Shown: one piece after another, positions 1 through 20,754 of the stretch
Layout of the letters: every line of letters starts with the position of its first letter
Position numbering within the stretch: position 1 is the first letter of the stretch
Virus record (IMG/VR): IMGVR_UViG_3300021963_000471
Span: 1 to 29,918 of that record
DNA from: a virus
Direction: 5' to 3' (one strand)
DNA length: 29,918 nucleotides
The notes under the pieces: model-generated
Database searches by the model: none
What the model was told of the DNA's origin: nothing
What the model saw: the letters and a program-made list of their open reading frames with translations, nothing else
Position numbers and translations under genes: made by a program

Positions 1-1
1 C

Positions 2-271
2 GACGATCCTGCAGCAGACACCGTCTTCATGCCACTGAACATGAACCCAGTTGGCATCGCACCACTCTCCGACGCGCCAATCGAAGGCGACCCAGGAGGA
101 ACACCAGAACAAGGTCAGACCGACGCGCAGCTGCTCGTCAACGCGCTGACCGCATCAATCTCTTCTCTCCCAGCACCAGTCGTTCACGTCAACGTGCCAG
201 CCGAGAAGCCTAAGAACAAGTCTGTCGAGCGCGATGCGAACGGCAACATCACACGGATCGTGGAGGAATAA
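2..271 (+). CDS. Phage portal protein, C-terminal end (5' truncated by window)
   Basis: The reading frame is open from base 2 and ends at TAA 269-271; the start lies outside the window. About 89 residues remain. The visible DTVFMPLNMNPVG segment followed by a Pro/Gly-rich linker, and a charged tail ending DANGNITRIVEE, look like the C-terminal end of HK97/SPP1-type portals. Portals form the dodecameric ring through which DNA enters the capsid. The position just before the protease and capsid genes supports this. The family call rests on a short tail segment plus gene order, so it is good but not certain. A downstream ATG at 29 exists but is internal. Confidence 0.72.
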   Translation, partial: DDPAADTVFMPLNMNPVGIAPLSDAPIEGDPGGTPEQGQTDAQLLVNALTASISSLPAPVVHVNVPAEKPKNKSVERDANGNITRIVEE

Positions 272-274
272 CGA

Positions 275-637: not shown

Positions 638-646
638 TAGGTCATC

Positions 647-1570: not shown

Positions 1571-1571
1571 T

Positions 1572-1595
1572 GCGTGACAGAGAGGACACCCTAAC
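1572..1595 (+). repeat. 24-bp intergenic repeat, copy 1
   Basis: A 24-bp sequence beginning GCGTGACAGAGAGGACACCC and ending three bases before the ATG of the protease gene. A perfect second copy lies at 5585-5608, also three bases before an ATG. The AGAGGA within it is a plausible Shine-Dalgarno sequence, though set rather far from the start. Confidence 0.85.
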
Positions 1596-1598
1596 GAC

Positions 1599-2678
1599 AT
1601 GAACCACTTGGAAGTGAAGTCGTACAGCGCTGAGTTCAAGGCAACAAAGGACGGTGCCAAGGGCATCGTCACAGCTCTCGTCTCAGTCTTCAACAACATC
1701 GATCTCGGCGGAGACCGCATGCTGCCTGGCTCATTCACTAAGACCATCCAGGACTGGCAAGCCAAGGGCGACCCACTTCCTGTCATCTGGTCTCACGAAT
1801 GGGACAACCCAAGCGCGCACATCGGCTTCGTCAACCCTGCCGACATGAAGGAGACCGACCAAGGTCTCGAGGTCAAGATGCAGTTCGATCTCGACCGTCC
1901 ATTCGCAGAGCAGGTATTCCACCTTCAGAAGACTCGTCGCGTGACGCAGTTCTCATTCGGCTACTACGTGACTGACTCAGAGGTTGTGAAGGAAGGCCCA
2001 GACACCATCCGCAACATCAAGGCAGTCGACCTCTTCGAAGTTGGCCCAACACTTCTTGGCATGAACCCTGCAACTCAGCTTCTCGAAGCTGCGAGCGCTC
2101 TCAACGGAGCGAAGGCAGGACGCGTACTCAACGCATCGAACGAAGAAGCTCTCAAGGGCGCTCGCGATCTCATCGACGGCGTACTCAAGAGCGTTCCACA
2201 AGCAGATGACCGCACTTCATCAGTGACTGGCAAGTCAGCAGAGGACATCGAGAAGAAGGACGGAATGGAAGAGGGCAACGACCTCTACCCAACGACTCCA
2301 CGTCAGACTTTTATGCAAGACGCTACAGAGAACGTCGTCGAGGTCTTCGGCAAGTTCGATCAGAGCGCAGGTCCAGAAGGTGCGCACTACGCACCAGCTG
2401 ACGCCAACCCATTCAAAGCAGAAGGTCTCATGTGCCAGAACTGCGTCTTCTTCCAAGGCCCACGTGGTTGCGAAGTTGTCGCTGGTGACATCGATCCAGA
2501 AGCAGTCTGCAAGCTCTGGGTCATCCCAGGCAACTTGCTCCCAGGTGCAGCCGCAGCAGATATGCCGGCAGATGGCACCAAATCAGAATCCGCTGACACC
2601 ACGCGTGACAGCGGTAGCACCATCAACCAAGAGCACGTGATCGCGTTGCTCTCCAAACCCCGACACACGGAGGACTAA
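1599..2678 (+). CDS. HK97-family prohead protease with C-terminal cysteine module
   Basis: A 359-residue protein whose first ~150 residues match the HK97 prohead protease family (peptidase U35), which cleaves scaffold and capsid N-termini during head maturation. Seen directly: VFNNIDLGGDRMLPGSF near residue 30, His66 in WSHEWDNP, and Ser119 in QFSFGY, the expected catalytic His and Ser. The family core is usually about 160-220 residues, so this protein has a long extension. The extension includes Cys279, Cys282, Cys291 and Cys304 in the arrangement C-x2-C-x8-C-x12-C followed by KLW, resembling HiPIP-like iron-sulfur modules seen in some phage head proteins. Its stop directly abuts the capsid gene ATG, so the two are probably translationally coupled. 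The extension may serve as scaffold (inference). Confidence 0.88.
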   Translation: MNHLEVKSYSAEFKATKDGAKGIVTALVSVFNNIDLGGDRMLPGSFTKTIQDWQAKGDPLPVIWSHEWDNPSAHIGFVNPADMKETDQGLEVKMQFDLDRPFAEQVFHLQKTRRVTQFSFGYYVTDSEVVKEGPDTIRNIKAVDLFEVGPTLLGMNPATQLLEAASALNGAKAGRVLNASNEEALKGARDLIDGVLKSVPQADDRTSSVTGKSAEDIEKKDGMEEGNDLYPTTPRQTFMQDATENVVEVFGKFDQSAGPEGAHYAPADANPFKAEGLMCQNCVFFQGPRGCEVVAGDIDPEAVCKLWVIPGNLLPGAAAADMPADGTKSESADTTRDSGSTINQEHVIALLSKPRHTED

Positions 2679-3935
2679 ATGGCCGACCTAAAGCCGCAAG
2701 TCCGCGAGCTGGCATCCGCTATCGACGCTAAAAAGGCTGAGGCGGCAAAGGCATTCGCGGAGTTCGACTCACTTCGAAAGAGTGCAGTCACAGAAGGTGT
2801 TGACTTCTCAAAGGATGCTTCTGCATTCGAGAAGCTCGACGAAGCAGGAAAGAGCTACGACGCGATCCGCGACGAAGTTTCTTCTATGGAATCTAAGCGC
2901 GCTCGCTTGCTCGAGCTCGCTGGAGAAAAGGCTGTCGAAATGGCAGCAAAGCGTGGAGACGATGCTGTCGCTGCAACCTACGGAGAGGCATTCGTAAAGT
3001 CTGCTGCATTCCAGGCTGCAAAGGAGCGCATCGCTTCATCTGACAACATCCCAATGGGAACTACTGAAGGCGTAAAGGTCGCTGATCGTGCTGAGTTCAA
3101 GACTCTCTTGACTTCAGCTGGTGCAGTCTCACCTCTTGCTGACCGTCAGGGACTCATCGTTCCAGCTCCACTCAAGGGTCTCGACTTCCTCTCAATGATC
3201 GCTACAGGTAACACTGACAGCGACGTCGTTGAGTACCTCGAAGAGACTACTTACACCAACGCAGCTGCTGAAGTTGCTGAAGGTACAGGAGCTGCTGAAT
3301 CAGCACTCGCATTCACAAAGCGCACTGCTAACGTGAAGGAGATCGCACACTTCCTTCCTGTTACTCGTCGCGCTCTCAACGACCAGGCATTCATCGAGGG
3401 TTGGATCAACAACCGCCTCATCGATGGCGTCCGTCGTCGCTTGCAGGATCAGGTTCTCAACGGTGACGGAACAGGTGAAAACCTCTCTGGCATCTACGGC
3501 AACTCTGGCATCGGATCAGTTGACCGCTCAGTGACAGGCACTTCAATGCTTGACTCACTTCACAAGGCGATCACTACAATCCGTACAAACGCATTCCAGG
3601 AGCCTGACTTCATCGGAATCAACCCAGCTGACTGGGAGACAATCCGTACGTCTAAGGCTTCTACAGCTGGTTCATACCTCTTCGGAGACCCAGCTTCAAA
3701 CGGTCCAGCAACTGTCTGGGGCGTTCCAGTGGTCATCCACGCTGCATTCACTTCAGGCTCACCACTCGTTGGTGTCGCTCGCGAAGCGAACCTCTTCATC
3801 CGCGAGGGTGTATCAGTTGCAGCGTCAGACTCACACAGCGACTACTTCACAAAGCGTCAGGTGGCTCTTCTTGCATCTGCTCGCGTTGCATTCGCTGTTA
3901 CTCAGCCAAAGGCATTCTGCCTCTCAGTTGCGTAA
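2679..3935 (+). CDS. Major capsid protein, HK97 fold
   Basis: A 418-residue protein. Residues about 1-95 are charged and helical (a coiled coil rich in Lys, Glu and Ala), like the delta/scaffold domain removed by the prohead protease. From about residue 130 the sequence follows HK97-type capsid proteins: LTSAGAVSPLADRQGL, then VTRRALNDQAFIEGWINNRL (E-loop to spine region) and a C-terminal REANLFIREGVSVAASDSH segment. The length suits the HK97 precursor class. The ATG follows the protease stop with no gap, and GGAGG just upstream of it is the ribosome site. Codon choice is more uniform than in neighbouring genes, as expected for the most abundant protein. A strong hairpin terminator follows at 3957-3986. 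Confidence 0.95.
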   Translation: MADLKPQVRELASAIDAKKAEAAKAFAEFDSLRKSAVTEGVDFSKDASAFEKLDEAGKSYDAIRDEVSSMESKRARLLELAGEKAVEMAAKRGDDAVAATYGEAFVKSAAFQAAKERIASSDNIPMGTTEGVKVADRAEFKTLLTSAGAVSPLADRQGLIVPAPLKGLDFLSMIATGNTDSDVVEYLEETTYTNAAAEVAEGTGAAESALAFTKRTANVKEIAHFLPVTRRALNDQAFIEGWINNRLIDGVRRRLQDQVLNGDGTGENLSGIYGNSGIGSVDRSVTGTSMLDSLHKAITTIRTNAFQEPDFIGINPADWETIRTSKASTAGSYLFGDPASNGPATVWGVPVVIHAAFTSGSPLVGVAREANLFIREGVSVAASDSHSDYFTKRQVALLASARVAFAVTQPKAFCLSVA

Positions 3936-3956
3936 TCACTCGATCTTCGGATCAAA

Positions 3957-3986
3957 GGAAGGGCGAGGCTTCGGCCTCGCCCTTCT
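3957..3986 (+). terminator. Hairpin terminator after the capsid gene
   Basis: An inverted repeat pairs GGGCGAGGC (3961-3969) with GCCTCGCCC (3974-3982) around a TTCG tetraloop, and the stem extends about three further base pairs outward. The uridine tract after it is weak (TTCTGCATT), so it may attenuate or stabilise the capsid mRNA 3' end as much as terminate. Confidence 0.8.
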
Positions 3987-4052
3987 GCATTCCATCGTGA
4001 CCTACGAGGCACTCTAGGCATATCAAACCCCCCCGACAGAAGGAGTCATGTC

Positions 4053-4283
4053 ATGACCGAAAAGATGTACACCTGCACTGAGCACGTCTACGACCGTCGC
4101 GATCCGAACCGTCCAGCAGTCTTCATCGCTGCTAAGGGCGAAGAGATTCCGTACTCATCAGCCGTCAAGCTCGGACTCGTTAAGGAAGCACCAGCAGTCA
4201 AGAAGGTTGCTGAATCCATGGTTGAAGACAAGGCCATCAAGCCTGCTGAGACCAAGGTAGCTCCGCGCAAGAGCAAGGCGTAA
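4053..4283 (+). CDS. Small Lys/Ala-rich protein in the head-tail region
   Basis: A 76-residue protein with a clear AGGAG site at 4041-4045 upstream of ATG 4053; an earlier ATG at 4048 meets a stop after two codons. The N-terminal half (YTCTEHVYDRRDPNRPAVF, then KGEEIPYSSAVKLGLV) looks compact. The C-terminal third is a Lys/Ala/Pro-rich tail. Small proteins of this kind commonly sit just after the capsid gene in actinophages, and the 77-residue protein at 5612 has a similar plan. I do not recognise a family; a head-associated role is inferred from position only. Confidence 0.7.
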   Translation: MTEKMYTCTEHVYDRRDPNRPAVFIAAKGEEIPYSSAVKLGLVKEAPAVKKVAESMVEDKAIKPAETKVAPRKSKA

Positions 4284-4286
4284 GCC

Positions 4287-5153
4287 ATGGAGAGACTGCT
4301 AGCTGGTCAACCAGGCACCGTCACTCTCAAGGTCTATAACGAGGACGGCGTCCTCACTGACGCCACAGGCTCTGTCAGTGTTCTCGTAGAGGACTCTGCC
4401 GGCACCGACGTCAGCACTGGCACAGCGACCAAGACTCCGACGACTACAGGCACCTACACCTACACAGTCCCAAAGACTGTGACAGAGAACCTCGACGCGT
4501 ACTCAGTCTCATGGACATATACCGTCGCTGGCGTCTCACGTACTGCGAAGACCTACTTCGAGGCTGTGGGAGGGCATCTCTTCGAGATCGCCGACTTCCG
4601 CGCTCGCGATACAGCTCTTGCAGACGCCACCATCTACCCTTCAGACAAGGTTCGCGCTGCTCGCGTAGCAGCTGAACAGCGCTTCGAGAAGCACGCCAAG
4701 GTTGCGTTCGTTCCTCGAGCTCGCACCGTCGTACTCAATGGCGATAACACCACACGCATCGTCGTGCCAGACGCAGAACTCCGCGTCGTCTACTCAGCTT
4801 CCATCGATGGAGTCGATCTCACAGAAGAAGAGATGGACTACCTCGAGGTCGACCCTTCAGGCATCATCCGTCGCAACGACGAGAAGCACTGGACTGCTGG
4901 CTTCAAGAACGTCGTGATTACCTACGAGCATGGCTACGACTCTCCACCAGAGCCAGTCAAGAACGCAGTCATGATGCTCGCCTTCGAAGAGCTCGTCCCT
5001 TCATCACTCAACCCACGTGCGACTTCACAGTCGACCGACCTTGGTGAGTTCCGTATCTCTGTCGCCAACGTCGATGCAGGGCGCTTCACAGGCATCCCAG
5101 ACGTCGACGCTGTGATCCAGACATTCGGTCGCAACCGTCCATCGGTGGGCTGA
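4287..5153 (+). CDS. Head-tail connector (adaptor) with N-terminal Ig-like domain
   Basis: A 288-residue protein starting 3 nt after the previous gene. Residues about 1-95 form an Ig/FN3-like beta domain (AGQPGTVTLKVYNEDG, then TGTYTYTVPKTVTENL and a closing TYFEAVGG). From about residue 100, LFEIADFRARD...YPSDKVRAARVAAEQRFEK resembles the helical head-tail adaptor family (HK97 gp6-like) that docks under the portal. A C-terminal GRFTGIPDVDAVIQTFGR segment is also typical. Such connectors are often 100-200 residues, so the N-terminal beta domain is an added module. The stop overlaps the next start (TGATG). Confidence 0.75.
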   Translation: MERLLAGQPGTVTLKVYNEDGVLTDATGSVSVLVEDSAGTDVSTGTATKTPTTTGTYTYTVPKTVTENLDAYSVSWTYTVAGVSRTAKTYFEAVGGHLFEIADFRARDTALADATIYPSDKVRAARVAAEQRFEKHAKVAFVPRARTVVLNGDNTTRIVVPDAELRVVYSASIDGVDLTEEEMDYLEVDPSGIIRRNDEKHWTAGFKNVVITYEHGYDSPPEPVKNAVMMLAFEELVPSSLNPRATSQSTDLGEFRISVANVDAGRFTGIPDVDAVIQTFGRNRPSVG

Positions 5154-5590
5154 TGAATAGCAAGCTCTACGACGCACAGGATGCTCTCAAGGCAATCCTC
5201 GATGACGCTGAAGGACTTGCCGGCATCACTAAGAGTCTTGGAACTCCACTCAAGCTCAGCGACCTCAAGGATGTCGTCTGGGTCTCTGGCGAGGTCGAAG
5301 ACTGGAACCAGGACTACCGCGTTACTTCACTTCTTGCAAAGGACGAGACCTTCGTCTTGCGCGTTCACTGCCTCACCAGCATCACAGGCGACTACAGAGC
5401 TGCGCGCAATCGCGTGAAGAGCTTCGCGGAAGCGGTCGAAGCTGTCGTGAGCGAGAACTACACACTCAACGGCACCGTGGAACTCGCACAGATTCGCTCA
5501 GGAGCCATGGAAGAGGCTCGTCTTGATGAGCGTCGCCACCAAGCATTGATCACCTTGTACATATCTTGCCGCGCCTGGCTTACGGCGTGA
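5153..5590 (+). CDS. Putative tail terminator / tail completion protein
   Basis: A 145-residue alpha/beta protein starting in a TGATG overlap with the connector gene. It has the size and layout of tail terminator proteins (lambda gpU-like or SPP1 gp17-like), which cap the tail tube at the neck. N-terminal helix (YDAQDALKAILDDAEGL), a strand pair VVWVSGEVEDWNQDY and DETFVLRVHC, and an RLDERRHQALITLYISCRA strand near the end. Order connector, terminator, major tail protein fits. Its stop codon lies inside the second copy of the 24-bp repeat. Confidence 0.6.
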   Translation: MNSKLYDAQDALKAILDDAEGLAGITKSLGTPLKLSDLKDVVWVSGEVEDWNQDYRVTSLLAKDETFVLRVHCLTSITGDYRAARNRVKSFAEAVEAVVSENYTLNGTVELAQIRSGAMEEARLDERRHQALITLYISCRAWLTA

Positions 5591-5846: not shown

Positions 5847-6821
5847 ATGGCAATTCAATCAGCACTAGCACAGGTTGGCGTTGCCAAGCAGTCCGCTAAG
5901 GGTTCTGCAGCATCCAACCCAACTTTCGGACATGGCGTCACTAACGGCACCGTCCTCACTGTAGACGTCTCTCAGGCGCTCGCAGATCAGACTTCAGGCG
6001 CTCGCGTCTCTCCAGGCGTTGACCGCACTGGCGTGATGCCAGGCATGGACTTCTCATGCCGCGCACACTCAAAGACTCTCGGCTTGTACCTCTATGGCGT
6101 GCTCGGCTCACTCGCTACCACAGGCGCTGGCCCATACACCCACACAATCACTTCAGGTGCAGACCTTCCATACTTGACCTCTTTCGGCAAGCTCGGAAGC
6201 AACATCTACGCAGTCCAGGACATGAAGCTCGACTCAGTTGGCATCAACTTCAACGGCACAGAGCCTGTCGAAGTAGCTGTCTCAGGCATGGGTACTGTCG
6301 CGAACTACGCAGCGACCTTCACTGCTGGAACTGACGACACTCTCGCTTCATACTTCGCAGCTCACACAGGAACCTTCTCAGTCGACGTCGACGGTGGAAG
6401 CGGAACTGCTGCTACAGCGAAGATTGCATCAGGTTCTATCACTATCAACAACAACCTCGAGACCATCATGATCTCAGGTTCAATCAGCCCAGACGACGTC
6501 TTCGTCGGTCGCCAGGAAGTCGAAGTCTCATTCGACATCATCCCTGATGACCTCGCGATGTGGCGCACAATCGTGACTGGTACTTCAACAGGCACAAGCG
6601 CTGCTGCGACTCCTGTCTACGGCTCATTCTCAATCGCCTTCACCAACGGTTCAGACACTGTGACTTTGGCTGGTACACGCGTTGCGTTCACCGCTGACTT
6701 CCCAGACGTCGATCCTGCTGGCGGTCCTGTGACCATCTCTCTTGCTGGTCTTGCAGTCCAGCCTGCGAACGGTGGAACTCCAGTCACAGCGACTCTCGTC
6801 AACTCACAGGCGAGCTACTAA
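5847..6821 (+). CDS. Major tail (tube) protein
   Basis: A 324-residue protein rich in Thr, Ser, Gly and beta strands, starting one base after the previous stop with GGAGG just upstream. The N-terminus (AIQSALAQVGVAKQSAKG), a central LGSNIYAVQDMKLDSVGI strand and LETIMISGSISPDDVFVGRQ agree with siphovirus tail tube proteins of the kind that stack as hexamers. Position before the chaperone frames and the tape measure supports it. A C-terminal part (FSIAFTNGSDTVTLAGTRV onward) may be an added Ig-like surface domain. A long hairpin follows immediately. Confidence 0.88.
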   Translation: MAIQSALAQVGVAKQSAKGSAASNPTFGHGVTNGTVLTVDVSQALADQTSGARVSPGVDRTGVMPGMDFSCRAHSKTLGLYLYGVLGSLATTGAGPYTHTITSGADLPYLTSFGKLGSNIYAVQDMKLDSVGINFNGTEPVEVAVSGMGTVANYAATFTAGTDDTLASYFAAHTGTFSVDVDGGSGTAATAKIASGSITINNNLETIMISGSISPDDVFVGRQEVEVSFDIIPDDLAMWRTIVTGTSTGTSAAATPVYGSFSIAFTNGSDTVTLAGTRVAFTADFPDVDPAGGPVTISLAGLAVQPANGGTPVTATLVNSQASY

Positions 6822-6826
6822 TCGAC

Positions 6827-6870
6827 TTGGTCAGAGCGGTTGCAACGGGGGAGTGCGCCGCTCTGACCAA
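6827..6870 (+). terminator. 13-bp perfect hairpin after the major tail gene
   Basis: TTGGTCAGAGCGG (6827-6839) pairs perfectly with CCGCTCTGACCAA (6858-6870) around an 18-base loop that holds GGGGG at 6847-6851. A CCCCC run at 6873-6877 just outside the stem could pair with the loop to form a pseudoknot. There is no clear uridine tract, so it may reduce read-through or protect the tail mRNA rather than terminate fully. Confidence 0.7.
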
Positions 6871-6915
6871 TACCCCCTCACTCACCCCACTCCACCATAG
6901 AAAGCAGGGCTAGAA

Positions 6916-7167
6916 ATGCAGATCAACTTCAGCGTCAGAGCAGAAGGCAAGACACAGGACGTCAGTACCACTTACGCGGATGTCATCGCGCTCGAACAGA
7001 AGTTCGACATCGATGCTTCAGAGCTCGCGAAGCGTCAGCGCGCTTCATGGCTCGCGTACATGGCATGGCACGCACTCAAGCGCACAGCGCAGACCACACT
7101 CTCATTCGAAGACTGGTCAAACACTCTTGAAGACCTCGATCCGAAGGACGAATCCCCAAACGCATAA
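6916..7167 (+). CDS. Tail assembly chaperone, upstream frame (gpG-like)
   Basis: An 83-residue acidic protein between the major tail and tape-measure genes, the place where siphoviruses encode chaperones that bind the tape measure during tail assembly. Starts at ATG 6916, with the weak upstream context AGCAGGGCTAGAA. N-terminal strands (INFSVRAEGKTQDVSTTY) and a Trp-rich helix (SWLAYMAWHALKR) are typical. Two codons before its TAA the frame crosses a C CCA AAC heptamer (7155-7161), a canonical -1 slippery site, so a fraction of ribosomes should continue into the next frame to give a fusion of 142 residues. Confidence 0.88.
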   Translation: MQINFSVRAEGKTQDVSTTYADVIALEQKFDIDASELAKRQRASWLAYMAWHALKRTAQTTLSFEDWSNTLEDLDPKDESPNA

Positions 7168-7205
7168 CGGCGATGGCTCGCCTGATTGCTCAGGTAGCTA
7201 TCGCC
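7155..7205 (+). promoter_or_regulatory. Programmed -1 ribosomal frameshift signal
   Basis: The heptamer C CCA AAC at 7155-7161 is in the right phase: CCA and AAC can re-pair as CCC and AAA. After a 7-base spacer, bases 7169-7178 pair with 7196-7205 (ten pairs, one G-U), and inside it CCTGA (7181-7185) pairs with TCAGG (7190-7194) around TTGC. The stem also covers the ATG at 7173. Frame 3 is open from 7131 onward, so the shifted product reads through to 7343. Confidence 0.88.
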
Positions 7206-7343
7206 ACCAGTATCGGTCCAAACGACTTGATCTCTGCACCCCCACAGGTGTTCGACGCCATCGTCGAGCAACTGGACAAGCAGCGCAAGGAGCAGGAGAT
7301 GGAAGAGCGTAGACAAAAGCTACGCTCACGACTGAAGAGCTAG
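7161..7343 (+). CDS. Tail assembly chaperone, downstream (T) frame, expressed by -1 frameshift
   Basis: After the slip the frame reads from 7161 to TAG 7341-7343 and adds 60 residues to the gpG-like protein (joined product 6916..7161 plus 7161..7343). The segment contains ARLIAQVAIATSIGPNDLIS, a PPQVFDAIVEQL helix and a highly charged Lys/Arg/Glu end, the usual look of the GT extension that contacts the tail tube protein. An internal ATG at 7173 could give a 56-residue free form, but it is buried in the predicted hairpin and has no good ribosome site. Confidence 0.85.
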   Translation, partial: RITAMARLIAQVAIATSIGPNDLISAPPQVFDAIVEQLDKQRKEQEMEERRQKLRSRLKS

Positions 7344-7352
7344 GAGAAACTC

Positions 7353-7925
7353 ATGCCAAACGAGGGACTCCAATACAACGTCACCATCTCTGGGCTTGAT
7401 CAACTCAAGAAAGAGCTCGGTGTTCTCGCACCCGATCTCAAGAACCAACTCACCAAGGTCTTCCGCAACGCCGCCAAAGAAATCCGCGACGACGCACGTA
7501 GACTCGTATCAGATGAGCCACCCATGCGTGGATGGCGCACCGTTAAAGCAATCAGCGGCACTTCACGTGGTGGTGCTGGTTGGCCTGAGTACGACGCCTC
7601 TCGCATCCGCGCCGGCATCGAATACAAGGCAGGTGTGACAGCTCCAGGGTTTTCATCTAAGGGTTCGACGAAGTTCTTCGGCTATCGCGTCTACAACGCA
7701 TCGCCGCAAGGAAACATCATGGAAGTTGCAGGTCGCAAGTCGGCTGGCAGCGGTACTGGTGTTCAGTTCATCCAGAACCTCAATAGCAAGAACGGTACTG
7801 CAGGTCGCCTGATCTACAGAGCCTTCGATGCTAAGGAGTCGTCGATCAACTTGAAGCTCAACCGTGAGGTCGAGCGCATAACTAACGAGTACGAACGACG
7901 TCTTAACGACAACGCGAGGGAGTAA
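7353..7925 (+). CDS. HK97 gp10-like / minor tail-associated protein
   Basis: A 190-residue basic protein with a good AGGAG site (7342-7346). The opening (NVTISGLDQLKKELGVLAPD) and the helix with KNAA-like sequence (KVFRNAAKEIRDDARRLV) resemble HK97 gp10-like tail completion proteins, with SKGSTKFFGYRVYNASP giving the later beta part. Those genes normally lie before the major tail gene, whereas here it lies between the chaperones and the tape measure, an order seen in some actinophages. A C-terminal coiled helix (NREVERITNEYERRLND) ends the protein. The role in joining head and tail is inferred from the family likeness. Confidence 0.55.
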   Translation: MPNEGLQYNVTISGLDQLKKELGVLAPDLKNQLTKVFRNAAKEIRDDARRLVSDEPPMRGWRTVKAISGTSRGGAGWPEYDASRIRAGIEYKAGVTAPGFSSKGSTKFFGYRVYNASPQGNIMEVAGRKSAGSGTGVQFIQNLNSKNGTAGRLIYRAFDAKESSINLKLNREVERITNEYERRLNDNARE

Positions 7926-7928
7926 CAG

Positions 7929-10073
7929 GTGGCAGGCGCAGTCATTCGAGTCAGCGGTGAGTTTGACGACGCCGCACTCAAGAAAGCCTCTGCCGCTCTA
8001 GGCAAGTTCGGCATGAAGGTCGAGTCCACAGGCAAGTCCTCTGGCAAGTCCTTCGATGGCCTCAAGACAAAGACCGTCGCACTCGGCGCAGCCATCGCTC
8101 GCATCGGTACAGACCTTCTCTACGCCTTCGGACGTCAGGCAACGAATCTCATCAAGGGTTCGATCACTGCTGCATCCGACCTCAACGAGACCCTCTCCAA
8201 GACCAAGGTCGTCTTCGGAGACGCGAGCTCATCAATCATCAAGTTCTCTGAGACGGCTGCAACCCAATTCGGTCTCACACAGCAGCAGGTACTCGACTCA
8301 GCTTCTACCTTCGGCATCTTTGGCAAGTCAGCAGGACTCGGCGGCAAAGACCTCTCAGCCTTCTCGCTCAAGCTGACTGGCCTCGCATCAGACCTCGCAT
8401 CTTTCAACAACACCACGACAGACGAAGCAATCACCGCTCTTGCTGCAGGTCTTCGTGGAGAATCAGAGCCTCTCCGCAAGTACGGCGTCCTCTTGGACGA
8501 CGCATCACTTCGTCAAGAAGCGCTCGCTCTCGGCATCGTCAAGACGACCAAGAAGGCTCTGACACCACAGCAACGCGTTCTCGCTGCACAGTCGATGATC
8601 CTCAAGCAGACCAAGCTCCAGCAAGGCGACTTCGCTCGTACATCTGGCGGTCTCGCCAACCAGCAGCGCATCCTCACTGCACAGTTCGAGAACCTCAAAG
8701 CACAGCTCGGTCAGTTCTTGCTACCTGTCGTCACAAAGATCGTCACCTTCTTCACTTCTCGATTCATGCCATCACTCGACGGCATGGCAGCAAAACTCAA
8801 GGACACTCTCGGCCCAGCAATCAAGGCGCTCGAGCCGCTCTTCAAAGGCATCGCGAAAGTCTTCAAGGAGAGCGGTGACGTCATCCTCGCTGTCGTCGGA
8901 GCTCTTGCAGCCGCCTTCGCAGCAATCCAGGTCGGCGCGCTCATCACAGCCATCGCTGAAGCAGGTGGTGCATTCGCATTCTTCGCAGGTGAAGGAACGG
9001 CTCTAGGAGCGGTCATCGCAGCTCTCACGGGGCCAATCGGTCTTACCGTCATCGCTATCGCAGCAATCGTCGGCGTCATGATCTATGCCTACCGCACCAG
9101 CGAGTCGTTCCGCGACAAGGTCAACGAAGCCTTCGCAGCTGTCGGTGACGCAATCGGATCAGCAGTTCGTATCTTCAACACACTTGCAGAAATCATCGCC
9201 GCATTCGTCAAGCCGGCACTCGAAGGTCTCTATGCGCTCGCCCTTGGCATTGCGAACTTCTTCATCAACGTCTTCCGTCTAGCGGCTCAAGGAGTCGCCT
9301 TCGCCTTCGGTTTCATCGCTGACGCTCTCGAGCGCAACAAGGAGCCACTGCAAGCACTCATGAACTTCTTCGGTCGCATCGTGGAGATCGTCGGCAAAGT
9401 ACTTGGCCCACTTCTTGGCTTCCTCGGCAACGTCGTCGGCATCATCCTCAAAGCTGCATTCATGGCACTCGGTATCGCTATCGGACTCACCATCGACATC
9501 ATCGGTGCCATCATCAACGTCGCTCGCGAGTTCGGTGAAGCTCTCATCGCACTTAAGGATGGAGCGATGATTGTCTTCGATGCCATCGGTGGCTTCGTCG
9601 GCGCTCTGTGGGACAAGCTCGTTGGCTTCAAGGATCAGCTCGTCGGTCTTGCCAAGACAATCTTCAGTCCGCTCTTGAGTGGCTTCAAGTCAATCGTCAA
9701 CAGCATCATCGGCATCTGGAACGGACTCGACTTCGGCTTCCATGTGACCGTTCCTGACATCCCTGGACTCCCGCACCGTGGCGAGTCATTCGGTGTCGAC
9801 GACATCTTCCCTGACATCCCTTATCTCGCGAAGGGCGGCATCGTTAACTCACCGACTCTCGCGATGATCGGTGAAGCTGGGCCAGAAGCGGTAGTGCCAC
9901 TCTCACGTGCTGGCGGTGCCGGCATCGGTGGCGTCACCGTTCAGGCTGGAGCAATCCAGATTAGCATTGGCTCACTTGATGGCATGGGCCGTACAGACAT
10001 TCAAGCAATCGTCGACCAAGCGTTCCAGAAGTCGATGACACAGCTCGCTCGAGACATTAGGACGCGGAGGTAA
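7929..10073 (+). CDS. Tape measure protein
   Basis: A 714-residue protein, the longest in the window, with a GTG start 3 nt after the previous stop and an AGGGAGTAACAG ribosome region. Residues 1-270 are helical with the typical FGLTQQQVLDSASTFGIFG and GLRGESEPLRKYGVLLDD motifs of phage tail tape measures. Hydrophobic segments lie at about 317-350, 360-388 and 490-532 and may form the membrane-penetrating part during DNA ejection. Near residue 635 the KGGIVNSPTLAMIGEAGPEA motif is a common tape-measure C-terminal signature. By the usual rule of about 1.5 angstrom per residue the tail would be roughly 105 nm long (inference). Confidence 0.95.
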   Translation: MAGAVIRVSGEFDDAALKKASAALGKFGMKVESTGKSSGKSFDGLKTKTVALGAAIARIGTDLLYAFGRQATNLIKGSITAASDLNETLSKTKVVFGDASSSIIKFSETAATQFGLTQQQVLDSASTFGIFGKSAGLGGKDLSAFSLKLTGLASDLASFNNTTTDEAITALAAGLRGESEPLRKYGVLLDDASLRQEALALGIVKTTKKALTPQQRVLAAQSMILKQTKLQQGDFARTSGGLANQQRILTAQFENLKAQLGQFLLPVVTKIVTFFTSRFMPSLDGMAAKLKDTLGPAIKALEPLFKGIAKVFKESGDVILAVVGALAAAFAAIQVGALITAIAEAGGAFAFFAGEGTALGAVIAALTGPIGLTVIAIAAIVGVMIYAYRTSESFRDKVNEAFAAVGDAIGSAVRIFNTLAEIIAAFVKPALEGLYALALGIANFFINVFRLAAQGVAFAFGFIADALERNKEPLQALMNFFGRIVEIVGKVLGPLLGFLGNVVGIILKAAFMALGIAIGLTIDIIGAIINVAREFGEALIALKDGAMIVFDAIGGFVGALWDKLVGFKDQLVGLAKTIFSPLLSGFKSIVNSIIGIWNGLDFGFHVTVPDIPGLPHRGESFGVDDIFPDIPYLAKGGIVNSPTLAMIGEAGPEAVVPLSRAGGAGIGGVTVQAGAIQISIGSLDGMGRTDIQAIVDQAFQKSMTQLARDIRTRR

Positions 10074-10078
10074 CGACG

Positions 10079-11614
10079 GTGGCAGTAACGATTCTTCGTC
10101 CCGATGAGGTCACATCAGGTGTCAGCAACTTCACCGCAACAGGTGGAAGCAGCATCCAAGTGTCCATGGCGGACAACACCGACACGACCTACATCCGCAA
10201 GAGCACTTCGGTCGCTGGTACCGCATCAATCATCTTCGGTATGGGAACCACTGCCCTATCTACTGGTCAGCGCATCCGCCAGGTACGTATCCGCGCTCGC
10301 ATCGACACTCCAAGTGCTGACGCACGTTGCAACATCTACCTCGGCACACGCGTCAACAATACGAACTACTTCGCATCTCCAATCCGCATCGCATCGACCA
10401 ACTACTCGACGATCACTGAGCTCACTTCTCCATACCTCACCGCAGCACCCGATGGTGAAGCATGGGATCAGAACCGCCTCGACGCGCTTCGTATGCAAAT
10501 CACGGAGTACAAGGACAGCCCTGATCGCACAAGCGTCTACGCGCTCTACGCGGATGTCGACATCGCGACTCGTCCAACCCTCACCGTCTCTTCGCCAACC
10601 GGCACCATCACCACGCCAGCAGGACTCGAAGTCAACTGGTCTTACTCCGACACCGATGGAGATGCACAGCGCTATTACCAAGTCCGCGTCATCGCTTCTT
10701 CCGTCTACGGAGTAGGATCGTTCGACGCTGCCACTTCAGACGCTGTCTGGGACTCAGGCGAGACCATCTCTCCTGACACTACAGCTGCCATCGGTAGCTA
10801 CCTTGCAGATGGCACCTATCGTGCCTACGTCCGCGTCGCAAAGACCATCAACGGCCTTCCGTTCTGGTCTCTGTGGGGCTACAGCACCTTCACGGTGTCT
10901 CTCGGCCCTATGCCGGCTCCGACCCTCACTGGCACCTACAGCACATCGTCAAATAGCGTCTCAATGGCTCTCGCAGGCACAAACCCAGTGCTCAAGTCCT
11001 TCGTCAACGCGGTCTTCCAAGTCCAGCGCTCCGACGATGGTGGAACCACATGGGCTGACGTCCGCGAAGGCGATGCCATCGCTCAAGACGGCACCTATCA
11101 CGGCTTCCTAGTCGACTACGAAGCCAAGCGCACCAACACGGCTCGCTACCGCGCTCGTCAGATCGGCTACACAGGAGCAATCGGGAGCTCGACGTCTGTT
11201 GCTGGCCCATGGTCAACAGCTCTCGTCCTCAACATCACCAACGACGGTGCATGGTGGATCAAGTCAATGCTCGATCCGAACCTCAACGTCGGTGGCGTTC
11301 GCGTCCTCGGCCCATCACTCGACTTCACTCAGGAAGAGAGCCTCGGCGTCTTCCGTCCTCTCGGTCGTACTCGTCCAATCGTCATCAGCGGCTATCTCTA
11401 CGGTCAAGACTCAGAGCTCGAAATCGCAACTCAGGGCGCAGCAGAGTGGAGCACCATCTCCGCGCTCGCTCAGCGTCAGGACACACTCTTCGTGCAAGAC
11501 CCATTCGGAGAGCAGCGCTACATCCGCGTCACTGGTCGTTCACATCGACTCGAAGGCCATGCGTCTAACCCACGTCGCTATCTGAAGCTGAGCTACGTCG
11601 AAGTAGAGGGCTAG
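10079..11614 (+). CDS. Minor tail protein with FN3/Ig-like domains
   Basis: A 511-residue protein with a GTG start and GGAGG upstream (10066-10070). The N-terminal ~170 residues form a beta-sandwich (ILRPDEVTSGVSNF, RIRQVRIRARID). Two FN3/Ig-like domains follow (RPTLTVSSPTGTITTPAGLEV, and MPAPTLTGTYSTSSNS). The last ~120 residues (NDGAWWIKSMLDPNLNVGGV, later RTRPIVISGYLYGQDSELEI) resemble the distal-tail-like C-terminal domain common in actinophage minor tail proteins. It directly follows the tape measure, where distal tail proteins are encoded, so a ring or collar at the tail tip is likely. Confidence 0.75.
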   Translation: MAVTILRPDEVTSGVSNFTATGGSSIQVSMADNTDTTYIRKSTSVAGTASIIFGMGTTALSTGQRIRQVRIRARIDTPSADARCNIYLGTRVNNTNYFASPIRIASTNYSTITELTSPYLTAAPDGEAWDQNRLDALRMQITEYKDSPDRTSVYALYADVDIATRPTLTVSSPTGTITTPAGLEVNWSYSDTDGDAQRYYQVRVIASSVYGVGSFDAATSDAVWDSGETISPDTTAAIGSYLADGTYRAYVRVAKTINGLPFWSLWGYSTFTVSLGPMPAPTLTGTYSTSSNSVSMALAGTNPVLKSFVNAVFQVQRSDDGGTTWADVREGDAIAQDGTYHGFLVDYEAKRTNTARYRARQIGYTGAIGSSTSVAGPWSTALVLNITNDGAWWIKSMLDPNLNVGGVRVLGPSLDFTQEESLGVFRPLGRTRPIVISGYLYGQDSELEIATQGAAEWSTISALAQRQDTLFVQDPFGEQRYIRVTGRSHRLEGHASNPRRYLKLSYVEVEG

Positions 11615-15985: not shown

Positions 15986-16025
15986 CCACAGCCCTTAGAG
16001 CCTCCCTGCGCTCTGGGGGCTGTGG
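15986..16025 (+). terminator. Late-operon terminator
   Basis: CCACAGCCC (15986-15994) pairs with GGGCTGTGG (16017-16025), and AGAGC (15997-16001) with GCTCT (16010-16014); the two T-G wobbles between them make one stem of about 16 pairs with an 8-base loop. It is followed by TCTTT. It closes the rightward structural operon just before the minus-strand tRNA gene. Confidence 0.88.
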
Positions 16026-16031
16026 TCTTTG

Positions 16032-16124
16032 CGGAAGGGGAGGGGATCGAACCCTCAAGGCGGCTCATCACCGCTCGCTCGATTTCAAGTCGAGTGCCGT
16101 CGCCAACCATCGGCTAGCCCTTCC
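16032..16124 (-). tRNA. tRNA-Ser (anticodon UGA)
   Basis: On the minus strand the acceptor arms GGAAGGG and CCCTTCC pair perfectly. The anticodon arm is CTCGA-CTTGAAA-TCGAG with anticodon TGA at 16085-16087, the T arm is GAGGG-TTCGATC-CCCTC, and a long variable arm with a GCGG/CCGC stem marks a class II tRNA. The D stem is GCC(G)/(C)GGC. Three bases rather than two separate the acceptor and D stems, an oddity. CCA is not encoded. It decodes UCA serine codons and is only three bases from attachment-like element A. It has the same anticodon as the tRNA fragment in element B. Confidence 0.88.
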
Positions 16125-16126
16125 AA

Positions 16127-16323
16127 GATGGCGCGAGATGGCGCGAGCCAACCTCGCAGAAACACCTAAACACGCAGGTCAAAGCCCTATTTCGACCACA
16201 CCCCCTACGGTTTTCAAGTCCGCCCCAATCACGCTTATCTCTTGCGTTGCAACAACCCTCGAGTACCACCTCTACACACGAAATCCCACCCCGTACCAGC
16301 CAGTTGGCGCGAGATGGCGCGCA
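16127..16323 (+). other. Attachment-site-like element A
   Basis: It begins with a tandem pair of 10-bp units (GATGGCGCGA, 16127-16147), contains GGTTTTCAAGTCCG at 16209-16222, and ends with another tandem pair (16304-16323). From 16209 to 16323 it aligns without gaps to 18469-18583 of element B with 14 differences in 115. The stretch 16148-16208 does not resemble a tRNA T arm, unlike B. By analogy with tyrosine-integrase sites, the tandem units would be arm-type binding sites and TTTCAAGTC the core. A hybrid or duplicated att site is the inferred origin. Confidence 0.6.
16209..16323 (+). repeat. 115-bp long direct repeat, left copy
   Basis: Matches 18469-18583 at 101 of 115 positions by eye with no gaps, in the same orientation and 2260 bp apart. 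Most differences are transitions or scattered single changes, which suggests an old duplication or two separately acquired related sites. Confidence 0.85.
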
Positions 16324-16389
16324 AGATCATGCACAAGTTCTCGGCGTGTCGAAGTAGCGGTTCGTTCATGTAGCGATAGCGTTTGCCAC

Positions 16390-16407
16390 GTGGACACCCC
16401 CGTCCAC
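16390..16407 (+). promoter_or_regulatory. Small hairpin upstream of the cassette genes
   Basis: GTGGAC (16390-16395) and GTCCAC (16402-16407) pair perfectly around ACCCCC, 22 bases before the ATG at 16429. It could be an operator half-site pair or an mRNA leader hairpin. I see no convincing promoter beside it. The rest of 16324-16428 shows nothing else I can name. Confidence 0.4.
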
Positions 16408-16428
16408 TTGAACGTTAGGAACACCCCC

Positions 16429-16743
16429 ATGCAAGACATCCACACCTCTCCCATGATCTGGGTAGACATGCTGACTGGCACCCGTCACGTCGACCGACAT
16501 GGCAATCACAAGCCATGCTTCGACTGTGACAAGGAGAAGGTCGAACTGAAGCAACAGATTTTAAAGGAAGCGACGGAACGCACTGAGCTGTACTGGCGTG
16601 CCAAGTTTTCAATGGATCGTAGAAGTGCCCTTGAAGAAGCAGCACAACTTGTCGAGGCCGAATGTGGTCTTACACGGCTTGGCCACGAGGCGCTTCCCTG
16701 TGTTCACTGCACACTCGCCGCAAAGATTCGGGCGCAGAAGTGA
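16429..16743 (+). CDS. Small protein with two CxxC pairs, first gene of the cassette
   Basis: A 104-residue protein. I chose ATG 16429 because TAGGA lies 8 bases upstream; the longer frame back to 16138 runs through the att-like element and gives low-quality sequence. CFDC near residue 30 and CVHC near residue 94 could together bind zinc, separated by a charged helix (KEKVELKQQILKEATERTEL). I do not recognise a family. It is the first of three overlapping genes between elements A and B. A DNA-binding or regulatory role is possible but unsupported. Confidence 0.6.
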   Translation: MQDIHTSPMIWVDMLTGTRHVDRHGNHKPCFDCDKEKVELKQQILKEATERTELYWRAKFSMDRRSALEEAAQLVEAECGLTRLGHEALPCVHCTLAAKIRAQK

Positions 16744-17036
16744 GCTACGAGATCAAGGCGACCGCCGAAGGCGGCATGACCATCACTGAGTCGCACTACA
16801 AATTGACAGAGGATCTGGTCAACGTCTTTCCTCGTTGCCACAGCTGCGACACGGAGCGGAGTTACCAGTCGCGCATTGACATGGTCGATGCTGTCATCCG
16901 CGATTTGGAGGCTCATCTTCGCGAGCAGATTGCGCAGGAAATCAAGGCTCTAAACGATGAAGGCCTAGATAAGCAACTATGGCTTCTCGTCGACGTTCTG
17001 AATGCCTGCGCTGCAATCGCTAGGGGGAATAAGTGA
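16740..17036 (+). CDS. Small hypothetical protein ending in the IARG motif
   Basis: A 98-residue protein. GTG 16740 is preferred because it overlaps the previous stop by four bases (GTGA), like most genes here; an upstream in-frame ATG at 16662 would overlap far more. CHSC sits near residue 34. The segment LREQIAQEIKA and the end AAIARGNK are shared in style with the 52-residue protein at 28176 (LREQIAKEIEA ... EIARGVND). Such short proteins with a terminal IARG are frequent in actinophages with no known function. The AGGGGG that encodes part of this end is also the ribosome site of the next gene. Confidence 0.65.
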   Translation: MSYEIKATAEGGMTITESHYKLTEDLVNVFPRCHSCDTERSYQSRIDMVDAVIRDLEAHLREQIAQEIKALNDEGLDKQLWLLVDVLNACAAIARGNK

Positions 17037-17218
17037 ACGACCTAAAGTGCGACTGCGGTCAACCCGCGAAATACAAGTGTCAAACAACCGACAAGTTCTT
17101 TGGAATCTTTTATCAGTATCTACGGTGCGAAGAACATCAAGAGTGGGGACCGATGGGGATGTTGAGTAGCTACCGCCGTGAAGAAATGCAGCGGTTGGCC
17201 GCTATTGCTAAAAGATAG
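17033..17218 (+). CDS. Small zinc-ribbon-like protein
   Basis: A 61-residue protein, GTG start in a four-base overlap, with AGGGGG seven bases upstream. It has CDCGQPAKYKC near the N-terminus and a later Cys/His pair (LRCEEHQEWG), a layout that could bind one zinc ion. It ends with a charged helix (YRREEMQRLAAIAKR). The gene runs convergently into the methyltransferase gene and overlaps its 3' end by 11 bases, which could give antisense interference between them. No family recognised. Confidence 0.65.
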   Translation: MNDLKCDCGQPAKYKCQTTDKFFGIFYQYLRCEEHQEWGPMGMLSSYRREEMQRLAAIAKR

Positions 17219-18245
17219 AAGTAGTCGCGTACTTGATGCGCGCCTTGGCTATCTCGACGTACTCAGGTGACTGATCAATCCCGATGAACTGAAAGCCCTC
17301 AAGGACGCATGCCTTGCCGGTTGACCCGCTACCCATGAATGGGTCGAGGACGGTGCCTGTCGGTGGCGTCACCAGCTTGACTAGGTAGCGCATGAGATTG
17401 GTTGGCTTGACGGTTGGATGAAAGTTCTTCAACTCGTTACCGCTGCGACCAGCGCCAGCGAAGGGAGTGTCACCTCCTTTGGCATCTAGGTTTTCACGGT
17501 AAGACTCATAAGGTGGCCGCTTATCCTCGAAATCCTCAAGCCCTTCGTTGCGATCTTTCTTGCTTGCCTTGGCGCAGTAGAAGAACTTTGCCCACTCGGT
17601 CTCAAGACCGTCGTGGATGAGGTTGGCAGGCCAGCGGCCCCCAGGCTCTGTCTGTGTTCCTGCGCCTAACCCCAAACCAAAGATGCCGTTGTCGTGTCGA
17701 TGAATCTCAGGACGAACTAAGGCGTCATCGCTTGATACGCGACTCGCGTCGATGTTGAGACCGCCAGTGCCGTGAGCGAGCACGTTGGCCGCGACGGTTC
17801 CAATCAGCGGCTTGCGAGCGAGGACCATTGGCTCATGCGCTGGCTTAAGTGCGGTACCCCAACCTTGCCAGTCATCAAGCGTCTTGCCGATGTTCATAGA
17901 CTTCGGAAAGCCTGAGCCATAAAGCCACATGATCTGATCGCGTATCTCGAAGCCTGCGTCCTCGATGGCAACAGCCATGCGGTGATAGGTGCGAGAGCCA
18001 GAGAAAGCGATGAGGTGTCCTCCTGGCTTGAGCACACGGAGCGCTTCACGCCAGACATCGACGTTGAAGGCGATGCCGCTGGCATCCCACGACTTGCCCA
18101 TGAAGCCAAGCTCGTATGGAGGATCGGTAACGACAGAGTCGACCGAGTTGTCTGGCATCGCTTTCATAGCTGCGATGCAGTCGCTGTTGATGATGGTCGT
18201 GCGCGATGGCGCAGAGGTTGATTCAGTATCTAGTGGGAGGGTCAC
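17208..18245 (-). CDS. DNA adenine/cytosine-N4 methyltransferase (DPPY type)
   Basis: A 345-residue protein encoded leftward. It has DPPY at residues 41-44 (catalytic motif IV) and DPFMGSG at 301-307 (motif I, SAM binding) followed by GFQFIGIDQSPEYVEIA. The order motif IV then motif I marks the beta class of amino-methyltransferases. HPTVKPTNLMRYLV before motif I is typical of the family. No restriction endonuclease partner is visible, so it is probably an orphan enzyme protecting phage DNA or altering host expression. It is the only structural or early-region gene besides the integrase and repressor on the minus strand and lies between the two att-like elements, consistent with acquisition as a cassette. 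Target sequence unknown. Confidence 0.92.
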   Translation of the reverse strand: MTLPLDTESTSAPSRTTIINSDCIAAMKAMPDNSVDSVVTDPPYELGFMGKSWDASGIAFNVDVWREALRVLKPGGHLIAFSGSRTYHRMAVAIEDAGFEIRDQIMWLYGSGFPKSMNIGKTLDDWQGWGTALKPAHEPMVLARKPLIGTVAANVLAHGTGGLNIDASRVSSDDALVRPEIHRHDNGIFGLGLGAGTQTEPGGRWPANLIHDGLETEWAKFFYCAKASKKDRNEGLEDFEDKRPPYESYRENLDAKGGDTPFAGAGRSGNELKNFHPTVKPTNLMRYLVKLVTPPTGTVLDPFMGSGSTGKACVLEGFQFIGIDQSPEYVEIAKARIKYATTSIF

Positions 18246-18392
18246 AAGCCGATGCTTGTGGTTGCGTCACGATTTCTTCCTCACATCGCTGCGTGACGCT
18301 AGTCCAGCTCATACACGCTCTGACCTGCACGTTCTCGACACTTCGAAAGATGGCGCGAGATGGCGCGCGAGCAGGTCTGAAAAACCGTAGCG

Positions 18393-18418
18393 CAGCGCAA
18401 GCGAGATGCCTTGCGCTG
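18393..18418 (-). terminator. tRNA-type terminator inside element B
   Basis: CAGCGCAAG and CTTGCGCTG form a perfect 9-bp stem with an 8-base loop. On the minus strand it lies just after the tRNA-Ser 3' end and is followed about eight bases on by TTTTT. It would terminate a host tRNA transcript rebuilt by integration. Confidence 0.72.
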
Positions 18419-18468
18419 TAGCGGGAGGAGTGGGATTCGAACCCACGGAAGACATCCCTGCCTTCACC

Positions 18469-18583
18469 GGCTTTCAAGTCCGCGCCAATCACGCGTATCC
18501 CTTGCGGCGCAATAACCCTCGAGTACCACCGTTACACACGAAATCCCATCTAGTCCCTGCCAGTTGGCGCGAGATGGCGCGCA
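18469..18583 (+). repeat. 115-bp long direct repeat, right copy
   Basis: Partner of 16209-16323. Homology starts exactly at the TTTCAAG anticodon-loop core and runs rightward to the end of the arm units. To the left of the core the two elements share only the outer GATGGCGCGA pairs. Confidence 0.85.
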
Positions 18584-18657
18584 GTTCGGCGTGTCGTACA
18601 TGCGATCAGATGAGAGTGCGCTAGCGTCTGCATCGCACCTTCCTTGTAGCAGATGAG

Positions 18658-18696: not shown

Positions 18697-19836
18697 CTAG
18701 GCGTAGTCCTCGAGGTTCACGACGTTATCTGGTGGCGGTGGAGTGTAGGAGCCGAGTCGGTTCAGCTTCGCAGCTGCTGACTGGTCTGCCTCTTGTCCTG
18801 GACGGACGTAGAACTTGTCGGTGATGCCAGTGCCTGAGTGACCAAGGCGACGGCTCACGATGGTGACGTCCACACCCTCTTCGATGAGAACCGTGGCGTG
18901 GCTGTGGCGTAGATCGCGCAGAGGGATGAAGGGCAGCTCGTACTTCGCACACTTCTGCTTGAACTTGGTGCTGACAAGGTCTGGGTGAATGAAGCCACCG
19001 TCCTTATCTCGGATCACTGGGCCAGTACCCATGCGGTCGATGAGGCGCTCGCGAGCCCAGTCAGGAAGGCTGATGGTACGGAGCGAGCGCTTGGACTTCG
19101 GAGGCTCGAGGTAGAGACCACGACCAGTCGCTGAGTGAAGACCTTGGACGACTCGGAGCTCACCCTTCTCGAGATCGACGTTGTCCCAAGTGAGTCCGCA
19201 TATCTCGGAGCGACGCATGCCGCACCCAAGAGCGAGGACAACGACGAGCTCAATCTCATCGCCTCGGAAGGCGTCAAGAGCCCTGCTGATGATCTCCGCA
19301 TTCCAGACCGTCAAGTCGCGTTCTGAGACCTGTGGACGGTCGGTGCCACTCATTGGGTCGAGTGCTAGGTAGTTCCACTTCACAGCCTGTCTGAGAGCCG
19401 TATGGAGGGCTGTGTAGGCATGAGCCATGGTGCGCTCGCTGAGTTCAGCCTTCTCGTACTCGAGCCTCGCCAGCCAGTTGTCGATGATCTGAGAGTCAAG
19501 GTCTGCAAGCTGCACCTGTCCGATGTACGGCGTCACGTAGAGACGGAGCTTCTCTTCATAGCCCTGAACGGTGCGAGTGCGTCGCTTCTTCTCCTTGAAG
19601 GGGAGATAGACGTCTGAGATGTAGCTGGCGAGCGTCATGGACTGCTTGAGCTTCTTGCCCTTGCCGTACTCCAGGGCCAGTCGTGCGAGCTCCTGAGCGG
19701 CTTCCTGCTTGGAGCCACGAACCGTGGCTGTCGGACGGACGCGCTTGCCAGTCTCTGAGTCTCTGCCGGCACTGACCTCGACTCGCCAGATGCCCTTGCC
19801 GATGGATCGGATGGTTCCCAGGTCACGTCTAGTCAT
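18697..19836 (-). CDS. int: Tyrosine-type integrase
   Basis: A 379-residue site-specific recombinase. The N-terminal ~65 residues (GTIRSIGKGIWRVEVSAGRD) match the arm-binding domain, residues about 67-165 the core-binding SAM-like domain, and the rest the catalytic domain. Visible catalytic residues are Arg208 in GMRRSE, a Lys in PKSKRS, Arg310 in DLRHS, His333 in RLGHSG and Tyr343 in ITDKFY. The usual His of the H-x-x-R box is Arg307 here. The start overlaps the repressor stop (ATGA), so the two are co-transcribed leftward. Its gene ends about 110 bp from element B, the probable attP. Confidence 0.95.
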   Translation of the reverse strand: MTRRDLGTIRSIGKGIWRVEVSAGRDSETGKRVRPTATVRGSKQEAAQELARLALEYGKGKKLKQSMTLASYISDVYLPFKEKKRRTRTVQGYEEKLRLYVTPYIGQVQLADLDSQIIDNWLARLEYEKAELSERTMAHAYTALHTALRQAVKWNYLALDPMSGTDRPQVSERDLTVWNAEIISRALDAFRGDEIELVVVLALGCGMRRSEICGLTWDNVDLEKGELRVVQGLHSATGRGLYLEPPKSKRSLRTISLPDWARERLIDRMGTGPVIRDKDGGFIHPDLVSTKFKQKCAKYELPFIPLRDLRHSHATVLIEEGVDVTIVSRRLGHSGTGITDKFYVRPGQEADQSAAAKLNRLGSYTPPPPDNVVNLEDYA

Positions 19837-20357: not shown

Positions 20358-20576
20358 GTGACCGCTCCAAGAGCGCTACAGCCCAACCCAGAGAGGTTGC
20401 GTGAGTTGCGGATTGAGAAGGCGCTATCGCAGCGCGAGCTCGCTCGTATCTCAGGCATCCGTCCTGGCACCGTCAACAGAGTCGAACAGGGTCATCCGAC
20501 GCGTCTTTCCACCATCGCAGCCCTCGCGCTCGCTCTTGGTGTGGAGCCGCTCGACATCGCTCGAGTGGATGTCTGA
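20358..20576 (+). CDS. Cro-like HTH protein
   Basis: A 72-residue XRE-family protein with a GTG start after AAGGAG. The helix-turn-helix fills most of it: RLRELRIEKALSQRELARIS, GIRPGTVNRVEQGHPTR, STIAALALALGVEPLDI. It is the first gene of the rightward early operon and faces the repressor across a 207-bp control region, as Cro does in lambda-like switches. It probably binds the same operators (inference). It overlaps the next gene by eight bases. Confidence 0.85.
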   Translation: MTAPRALQPNPERLRELRIEKALSQRELARISGIRPGTVNRVEQGHPTRLSTIAALALALGVEPLDIARVDV

Positions 20577-20754
20577 GCGACTGACGATGACAGTGCAGGA
20601 AACCGCCGAGGCTCTCGGCATCAGCCGGAACACGGCCTACGAGCTCGTACACCAGGGACACATCCCATCGGTGCGACTCGGTCGGCGGCTACTCGTACCC
20701 AAGCAAGCACTACACGCCTGGCTTGAAGGACAGGCAGAACGGAAGCACCCATGA
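20569..20754 (+). CDS. Excisionase-like / MerR-type HTH protein
   Basis: A 61-residue protein; ATG 20569 (or the internal ATG 20587) is preferred to a longer frame that would cover most of the Cro-like gene. The fold is the small winged HTH of excisionase/helix-turn-helix family 17: MTVQETAEALGISRNTAYEL, then GHIPSVRLGRRLLVPKQAL. Such proteins bend DNA at att sites and direct excision, or act as small regulators. With an integrase nearby, excisionase is the leading guess. It overlaps the next gene by four bases (ATGA). Confidence 0.8.
   Translation: MSERLTMTVQETAEALGISRNTAYELVHQGHIPSVRLGRRLLVPKQALHAWLEGQAERKHP

Follow-up and report, generated by a model that had tools for sequence, protein, structure and literature searches.

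Tyrosine integrases of actinophages typically act at cores that are the 30-45-bp 3' halves of tRNA genes (PMC10865867). In a conventional attP of this kind, as in the phages Boilgate and Omega, a long segment of identity to the tRNA 3' half lies between arm sites beside the integrase gene (int), and the tRNA gene split by integration is rebuilt (PMC10865867). A second system, tRNA-dependent lysogeny, was described by Guerrero-Bustamante and Hatfull and experimentally confirmed in Gaia, which integrates through an 8-bp core in tRNA-Leu(CAA) (PMC10865867); the modules of Gaia and Fionnbharth comprise a tyrosine integrase, an attP with paired arms and no tRNA half, and a phage tRNA whose anticodon is that of the targeted tRNA. 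The phages tabled in that study either rebuild the tRNA or supply it, each having one system, and how the two modes of integration are related in evolution is unclear according to the describers of the second (PMC10865867). In the Gaia genome we found, in this order, int, a doubled arm site at 8875-8892, a candidate core at 9002, another doubled arm site at 9092-9109 and, 11 bp past the arm, tRNA-Leu(CAA) at 9121 on the strand of int. Integration would place the promoter of the host tRNA upstream of this tRNA-Leu (Gaia locus L099, 8834-9204), and promoter capture may apply there.

In contrast to those phages, the virus examined in this study appears to have both types of sites, which are 2.26 kb apart and share a single integrase. 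The window, namely the whole stretch of DNA that was analysed, consists of the 29,918 nucleotides of the IMG/VR record IMGVR_UViG_3300021963_000471 and is an incomplete genome, because positions 6065-11559 of another contig (L006; IMGVR_UViG_3300021962_001766) are identical to its first 5495 positions (1-5495) and extend the same virus by about 6 kb upstream. The integrase (18697-19836, minus strand) belongs to the tyrosine family (PF00589), and its catalytic residues could be aligned, with R208, K247, R310, H333 and Y343 being conserved; the first His in the HxxR box is replaced with Arg (LRDLRH), as is also the case in the relative L015 described below and in Bifidobacterium phage PMBT6. An HTH_17/excisionase-like protein encoded at 20401-20754 on the plus strand is a candidate recombination directionality factor. 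The nearest capsid proteins, which are about 35% identical, are those of mycobacteriophages such as Butters, and it is only for this reason that the host is suggested to be, probably, an actinobacterium. Over the aligned part, the integrase is only 25% identical to that of Gaia, so that the likeness to Gaia described below is one of architecture and not of close descent.

An earlier note on this DNA had pointed to a repeat of 115 positions around a methyltransferase cassette, and the repeat was found again: 16209-16323 and 18469-18583 align with no gap at 101 of 115 positions in the same orientation with an offset of 2260 (102 of 116 when counted from 16208). The window contains exactly three copies of TTTCAAGTC, the anticodon-loop sequence that the note had proposed as the core: one at 16212 in the first element (A), one at 18472 in the second (B) and one at 16083 inside a tRNA-Ser gene. 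In shuffled sequences, the mean is 0.14 copies. The tandem units that it had reported on both sides of each element were located as four doubled sets of GATGGCGCGA-type decamers (16127-16146, 16303-16322, 18349-18368 and 18563-18582). Element A as a whole spans 16125-16323 and element B 18347-18583, and both have the same order of a doubled arm site, a core and a doubled arm site. In A, these are the distal (left) arm site with its two tandem decamers (16125-16146, plus strand), 21 bp of which match 18347-18367 of B; a segment between the distal arm and the core (16147-16208, plus strand) with no tRNA sequence and no relation to its counterpart in B; the core (16209-16224, plus strand); and the proximal half (16225-16323, plus strand) with the doubled arm site at 16303-16322. 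In B, the distal arm site lies at 18347-18368 and the core and proximal half, with the doubled arm site at 18563-18582, at 18469-18583, all given on the plus strand. The cores of A and B are identical over 12 contiguous bp (GCGGACTTGAAA, minus strand), and A has retained in its core the CGG...CCG half-sites that surround the anticodon loop. By this layout, both elements have the anatomy of a lambda-type attP.

The homology of the two elements goes beyond the right arm. After an indel of 15 bp, 16341-16386 (plus strand) matches 18586-18631 at 31 of 46 positions, a value reached in none of 300 shuffles (maximum, 26), and is what remains in A of the stretch by which attP and int are separated in B. 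The site sequences are 88% identical between A and B as compared with 67% in this adjoining flank (Fisher P = 0.005), and the core and right arm of A carry no substitutions (P = 0.013, post hoc). Since the copies differ by 12%, an assembly artefact was rejected as the source of the pair.

The same arm motif was also found in one relative. L015, which covers 17 kb of a viral contig of 38.5 kb, is syntenic with the window and contains in the same order homologues of the tail genes, the integrase (42% identical), a putative repressor, the HTH protein and further genes. Just after its integrase, the 16-bp arm motif, GGCGCGAGATGGCGCG, occurs three times around a core from the anticodon loop of tRNA-Leu, and this shared motif strengthens the earlier proposal of two attachment-site-like elements around a methyltransferase cassette beside int. 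Among 2.9 million viral contigs, L015 alone has multiple copies of the motif in its 18-bp form; three other contigs (L096-L098) have one copy each, in no case close to an integrase match, and these copies appear to be fortuitous occurrences within coding sequence. L015 has one attP, with neither a methyltransferase near it nor a second site. It is therefore a relative that lacks the cassette, though a distant one, and the version of the phage with no cassette for which the earlier note had asked is hence represented only at the distance of an integrase of 42% identity.

Element B adjoins int, and the segment between its two doubled arm sites includes a complete tRNA-Ser 3' half (18421-18478, minus strand), which starts with the anticodon loop (CTTGAAA), continues with a variable arm that is paired and with the T arm, and ends with the acceptor 3' strand and the discriminator; it constitutes the identity segment of attP. 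Directly 3' of it, a hairpin at 18382-18415 (fold z = -2.1) is a candidate terminator for the rebuilt tRNA. B is thus organized in the manner of Boilgate and Omega and is very probably a conventional attP, able to rebuild its target tRNA gene. As B has a distal arm site of its own, we rejected the notion that it represents a host-phage junction. In 84,980 genomes, neither an exact 39-mer of the tRNA half nor a relaxed tRNA pattern had a match for a host attB, and the target and the length of the core are therefore read from B alone. Unlike in Boilgate and Omega, however, a second site that would not rebuild the tRNA stands 2.26 kb away (PMC10865867).

This second site, element A, has no tRNA half and shares 12 bp of its short core with B. 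What lies beside it is an intact phage tRNA-Ser(UGA) gene (16031-16124, minus strand), which was found with ARAGORN and whose acceptor and T stems fold intact; it is on the strand of the integrase and is separated at its 5' end by 2 bp from the distal arm site and by 92 bp from the core of A. Directly 3' of this gene and before the genes of the lysis region, a strong hairpin formed by an inverted repeat (15986-16025; fold z = -4.7) is a candidate terminator. Besides this tRNA-Ser(UGA), no tRNA gene is present in the window or in the 6 kb of upstream sequence covered by L006. The anticodon of tRNA-Ser(UGA) is that of the target of B, insofar as the target is deduced from B. The gene differs in sequence from the tRNA half of B, with the anticodon and the CTTGAAA anticodon loop being the same. 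Element A and its tRNA are arranged as in Gaia, with a doubled arm, the core, a doubled arm and then the tRNA on the int strand, but the targets listed for the described phages do not include tRNA-Ser(UGA) (PMC10865867). We think that A and B differ in kind, namely that A is a non-rebuilding site beside a replacement tRNA and B a tRNA-rebuilding site, a point absent from the earlier note. It is fairly likely that A is, or formerly was, a functional attP with a short core. Nonetheless, A may work poorly, because the spacing between the distal arm and the core is about 69 bp in A and about 107 bp in B, a difference that is not an integral number of helical turns.

Alternatively, A might be a relic, a copy of attP left by recombination of two related phages, with B as the only working site and tRNA-Ser as ordinary cargo. 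Indeed, B alone adjoins int and alone contains a tRNA half, phage mosaicism duplicates sites easily, L015 manages with a single attP, and the distal spacing of A is the shorter one. On the other hand, the core and both arm sites of A have stayed intact while the spacer and flank diverged, and the sole tRNA of the phage has the target anticodon and, in a layout like that of Gaia, is separated from A by 2 bp, so we regard a mere relic as possible but doubtful.

The explanation toward which we lean, with modest confidence in its full combined form, is that one tyrosine integrase serves two kinds of attP, the tRNA-rebuilding B and the tRNA-complemented A, with an integrase-less cargo in between. 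The same order of arms and core and the same core sequence in A and B, together with the tRNA half in B alone, argue for this explanation. In such a temperate phage, both sites would be aimed at the anticodon loop of the host tRNA-Ser(UGA) gene. After integration at B, the tRNA would be rebuilt, because the phage would supply the 3' half that the split host gene had lost. Integration at A, in contrast, would split the host gene and rebuild nothing, and we infer that this could be tolerated by virtue of the adjoining phage tRNA-Ser(UGA), as in tRNA-dependent lysogeny. One junction formed at A would consist, all in the same orientation, of the host promoter, the host 5' half, the core, the distal segment of A and the phage tRNA-Ser, an arrangement in which the replacement tRNA could be transcribed from the host promoter. 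Against the explanation, the phage tRNA-Ser would be redundant if B rebuilds the tRNA, and it could serve lytic translation instead. A promoter scan recognised none in the region and, likewise, none upstream of the tRNA of Gaia.

The position of A directly upstream of an operon of small reading frames (start of the first, 16429) and of the divergent tRNA gene might also mean that this copy is regulatory, with the integrase or a host factor bound there controlling the operon or the tRNA. A regulator would not need the crossover sequence that is present in the core of A, and the promoter scan was negative, as noted above; such a role is therefore considered highly improbable.

Returning to the two kinds of attP, we consider that the presence of both for one integrase in one genome would offer a concrete route between the two systems, by accretion or crossover and subsequent deletion between the sites. 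A single genome would in this way bring together, around a small methyltransferase cassette, two strategies that different phages are known to use, and the arrangement suggests how cargo such as a methyltransferase can get trapped between att sites and can afterwards be deleted or mobilized by the integrase of the phage itself. A bolder version, which we rate as unlikely, is that the sites provide alternative modes of lysogeny with one integrase: B would rebuild the tRNA, A would replace it by using the captured host promoter, and A x B recombination would switch between the modes with loss or regain of the cassette. If true, a phage that switches in this way would represent a living link from one of the known systems to the other.

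The cassette between the sites is composed, as the earlier note had described, of three overlapping small genes and a convergent methyltransferase. The small reading frames, all on the plus strand, encode 104 amino acids with two CxxC motifs (16429-16743), 98 amino acids with one CxxC (16740-17036; its start overlaps the stop of the first) and 61 Cys-rich amino acids (17033-17218; its start overlaps the stop of the second), and none of the three (16429-17218) has a convincing family match. The methyltransferase (17208-18245, minus strand) is of the DNA N6/N4 type (PF01555) with a DPPY motif; its family matches are type II and orphan methyltransferases, and it is an orphan, with no restriction partner seen in the cassette. 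As the 12-bp cores are identical and directly oriented, deletion of the 2,260-bp cassette by the integrase is mechanistically possible. Under the favoured model of two kinds of attP, A x B recombination would yield a phage that keeps the tRNA together with a short-core attP and could still establish lysogeny, and would release a 2,260-bp circle that carries a conventional attP and no integrase.

The same features raise the question of whether the cassette is a self-contained mobile unit, either a mini-satellite or a cis-mobilizable element, that has no integrase of its own and is moved by the phage integrase at A and B; the circle would then owe its conventional attP to the distal half of B and the proximal half of A. 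Direct orientation, the identical 12-bp core, complete arms at both ends and the absence of an integrase inside are all in keeping with this idea, and accreted elements that keep att sites and lack an integrase are documented (PMC5704250; PMC3146451). Like cis-mobilizable elements and accreted islands (PMC5704250), the latter including the Dehalococcoides ssrA islands (PMC3146451), the cassette is an integrase-less cargo between att sites beside an element with a matching integrase, whereas those elements are known from chromosomal islands and the present cargo lies inside a phage genome and measures only 2.26 kb. Helper-embedded phage satellites (PICIs) resemble it in being satellites inside a phage and in an attP whose two sides each bear a doubled, co-oriented arm motif, but they differ from the present phage in an integrase clade of their own and in late-gene targets (PMC10111431). 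Indeed, the cassette holds only the three small reading frames and the methyltransferase, and the own integrase and the regulatory and replication genes of the PICI type are absent. The composition of the cassette is similar to that of the rest of the phage, and the cassette, like the arrangement as a whole, was found in this one genome and in no second phage or contig. Furthermore, recombination of attP with attP is usually poor in lambda-type systems, and an independently mobile cassette is accordingly held to be improbable.

As regards the origin of the two sites, the earlier note had suggested that a satellite or second phage once integrated in tandem and left its gene load. Its general idea of a second element is plausible in the light of the unequal conservation of sites and flank, a pattern to be expected if the copies had evolved apart in two lineages, both functional, before they came together. 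Simple tandem integration into a tRNA gene was rejected as the whole story, because every site would then carry a tRNA half and A has none. The likely origin is one of two, namely accretion, in which a pair of related elements came to occupy the same tRNA gene and later left it together, or a crossover that involved two related phages. By the former route, a non-rebuilding phage would have integrated beside a decayed conventional element in the same tRNA gene and both would have been excised together through the outer sites, and on this account each end of the cargo should have one mixed site and no more; such accretion is documented for genomic islands (PMC5704250). By the latter route, a single crossover would have linked the left portion of a first phage, with A in it, to the portion of a second that contained the cargo, B and int. 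Tandem prophages at a single tRNA gene in Mycobacterium abscessus T36 likewise involve two related elements and one tRNA site, and the phage tRNA has been suggested there to complement an impaired host tRNA; those are two whole prophages, however, in contrast to one integrase and a small cassette in the present case (PMC9934374).

Searches for close relatives with the integrase, the capsid protein and the first small reading frame gave only L006, which ends short of the cassette, and a pattern for the right half of the sites had no further matches. Duplicated sites resembling A and B were found near int in none of 85 loci (L010-L094), only about 25 of which extend at least 2.5 kb past int; a 62-bp pair in one of them (L076) was dismissed as a short unrelated repeat.

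Some minor observations may be added. The distal segment of A has a weak match to L015 (P = 0.009), to which we give no weight. In L015 itself (9050-9230), the reading frame of the integrase runs at its 3' end into the integrase-proximal arm sites, and the attP has an apparent 5' half of tRNA-Leu, not a 3' half; a small Cys-rich reading frame lies beside this attP as well. In the present phage, a palindrome (GTGGAC-ACCCCC-GTCCAC, 16389-16406) is located upstream of the first small reading frame and is possibly an operator or a leader hairpin.
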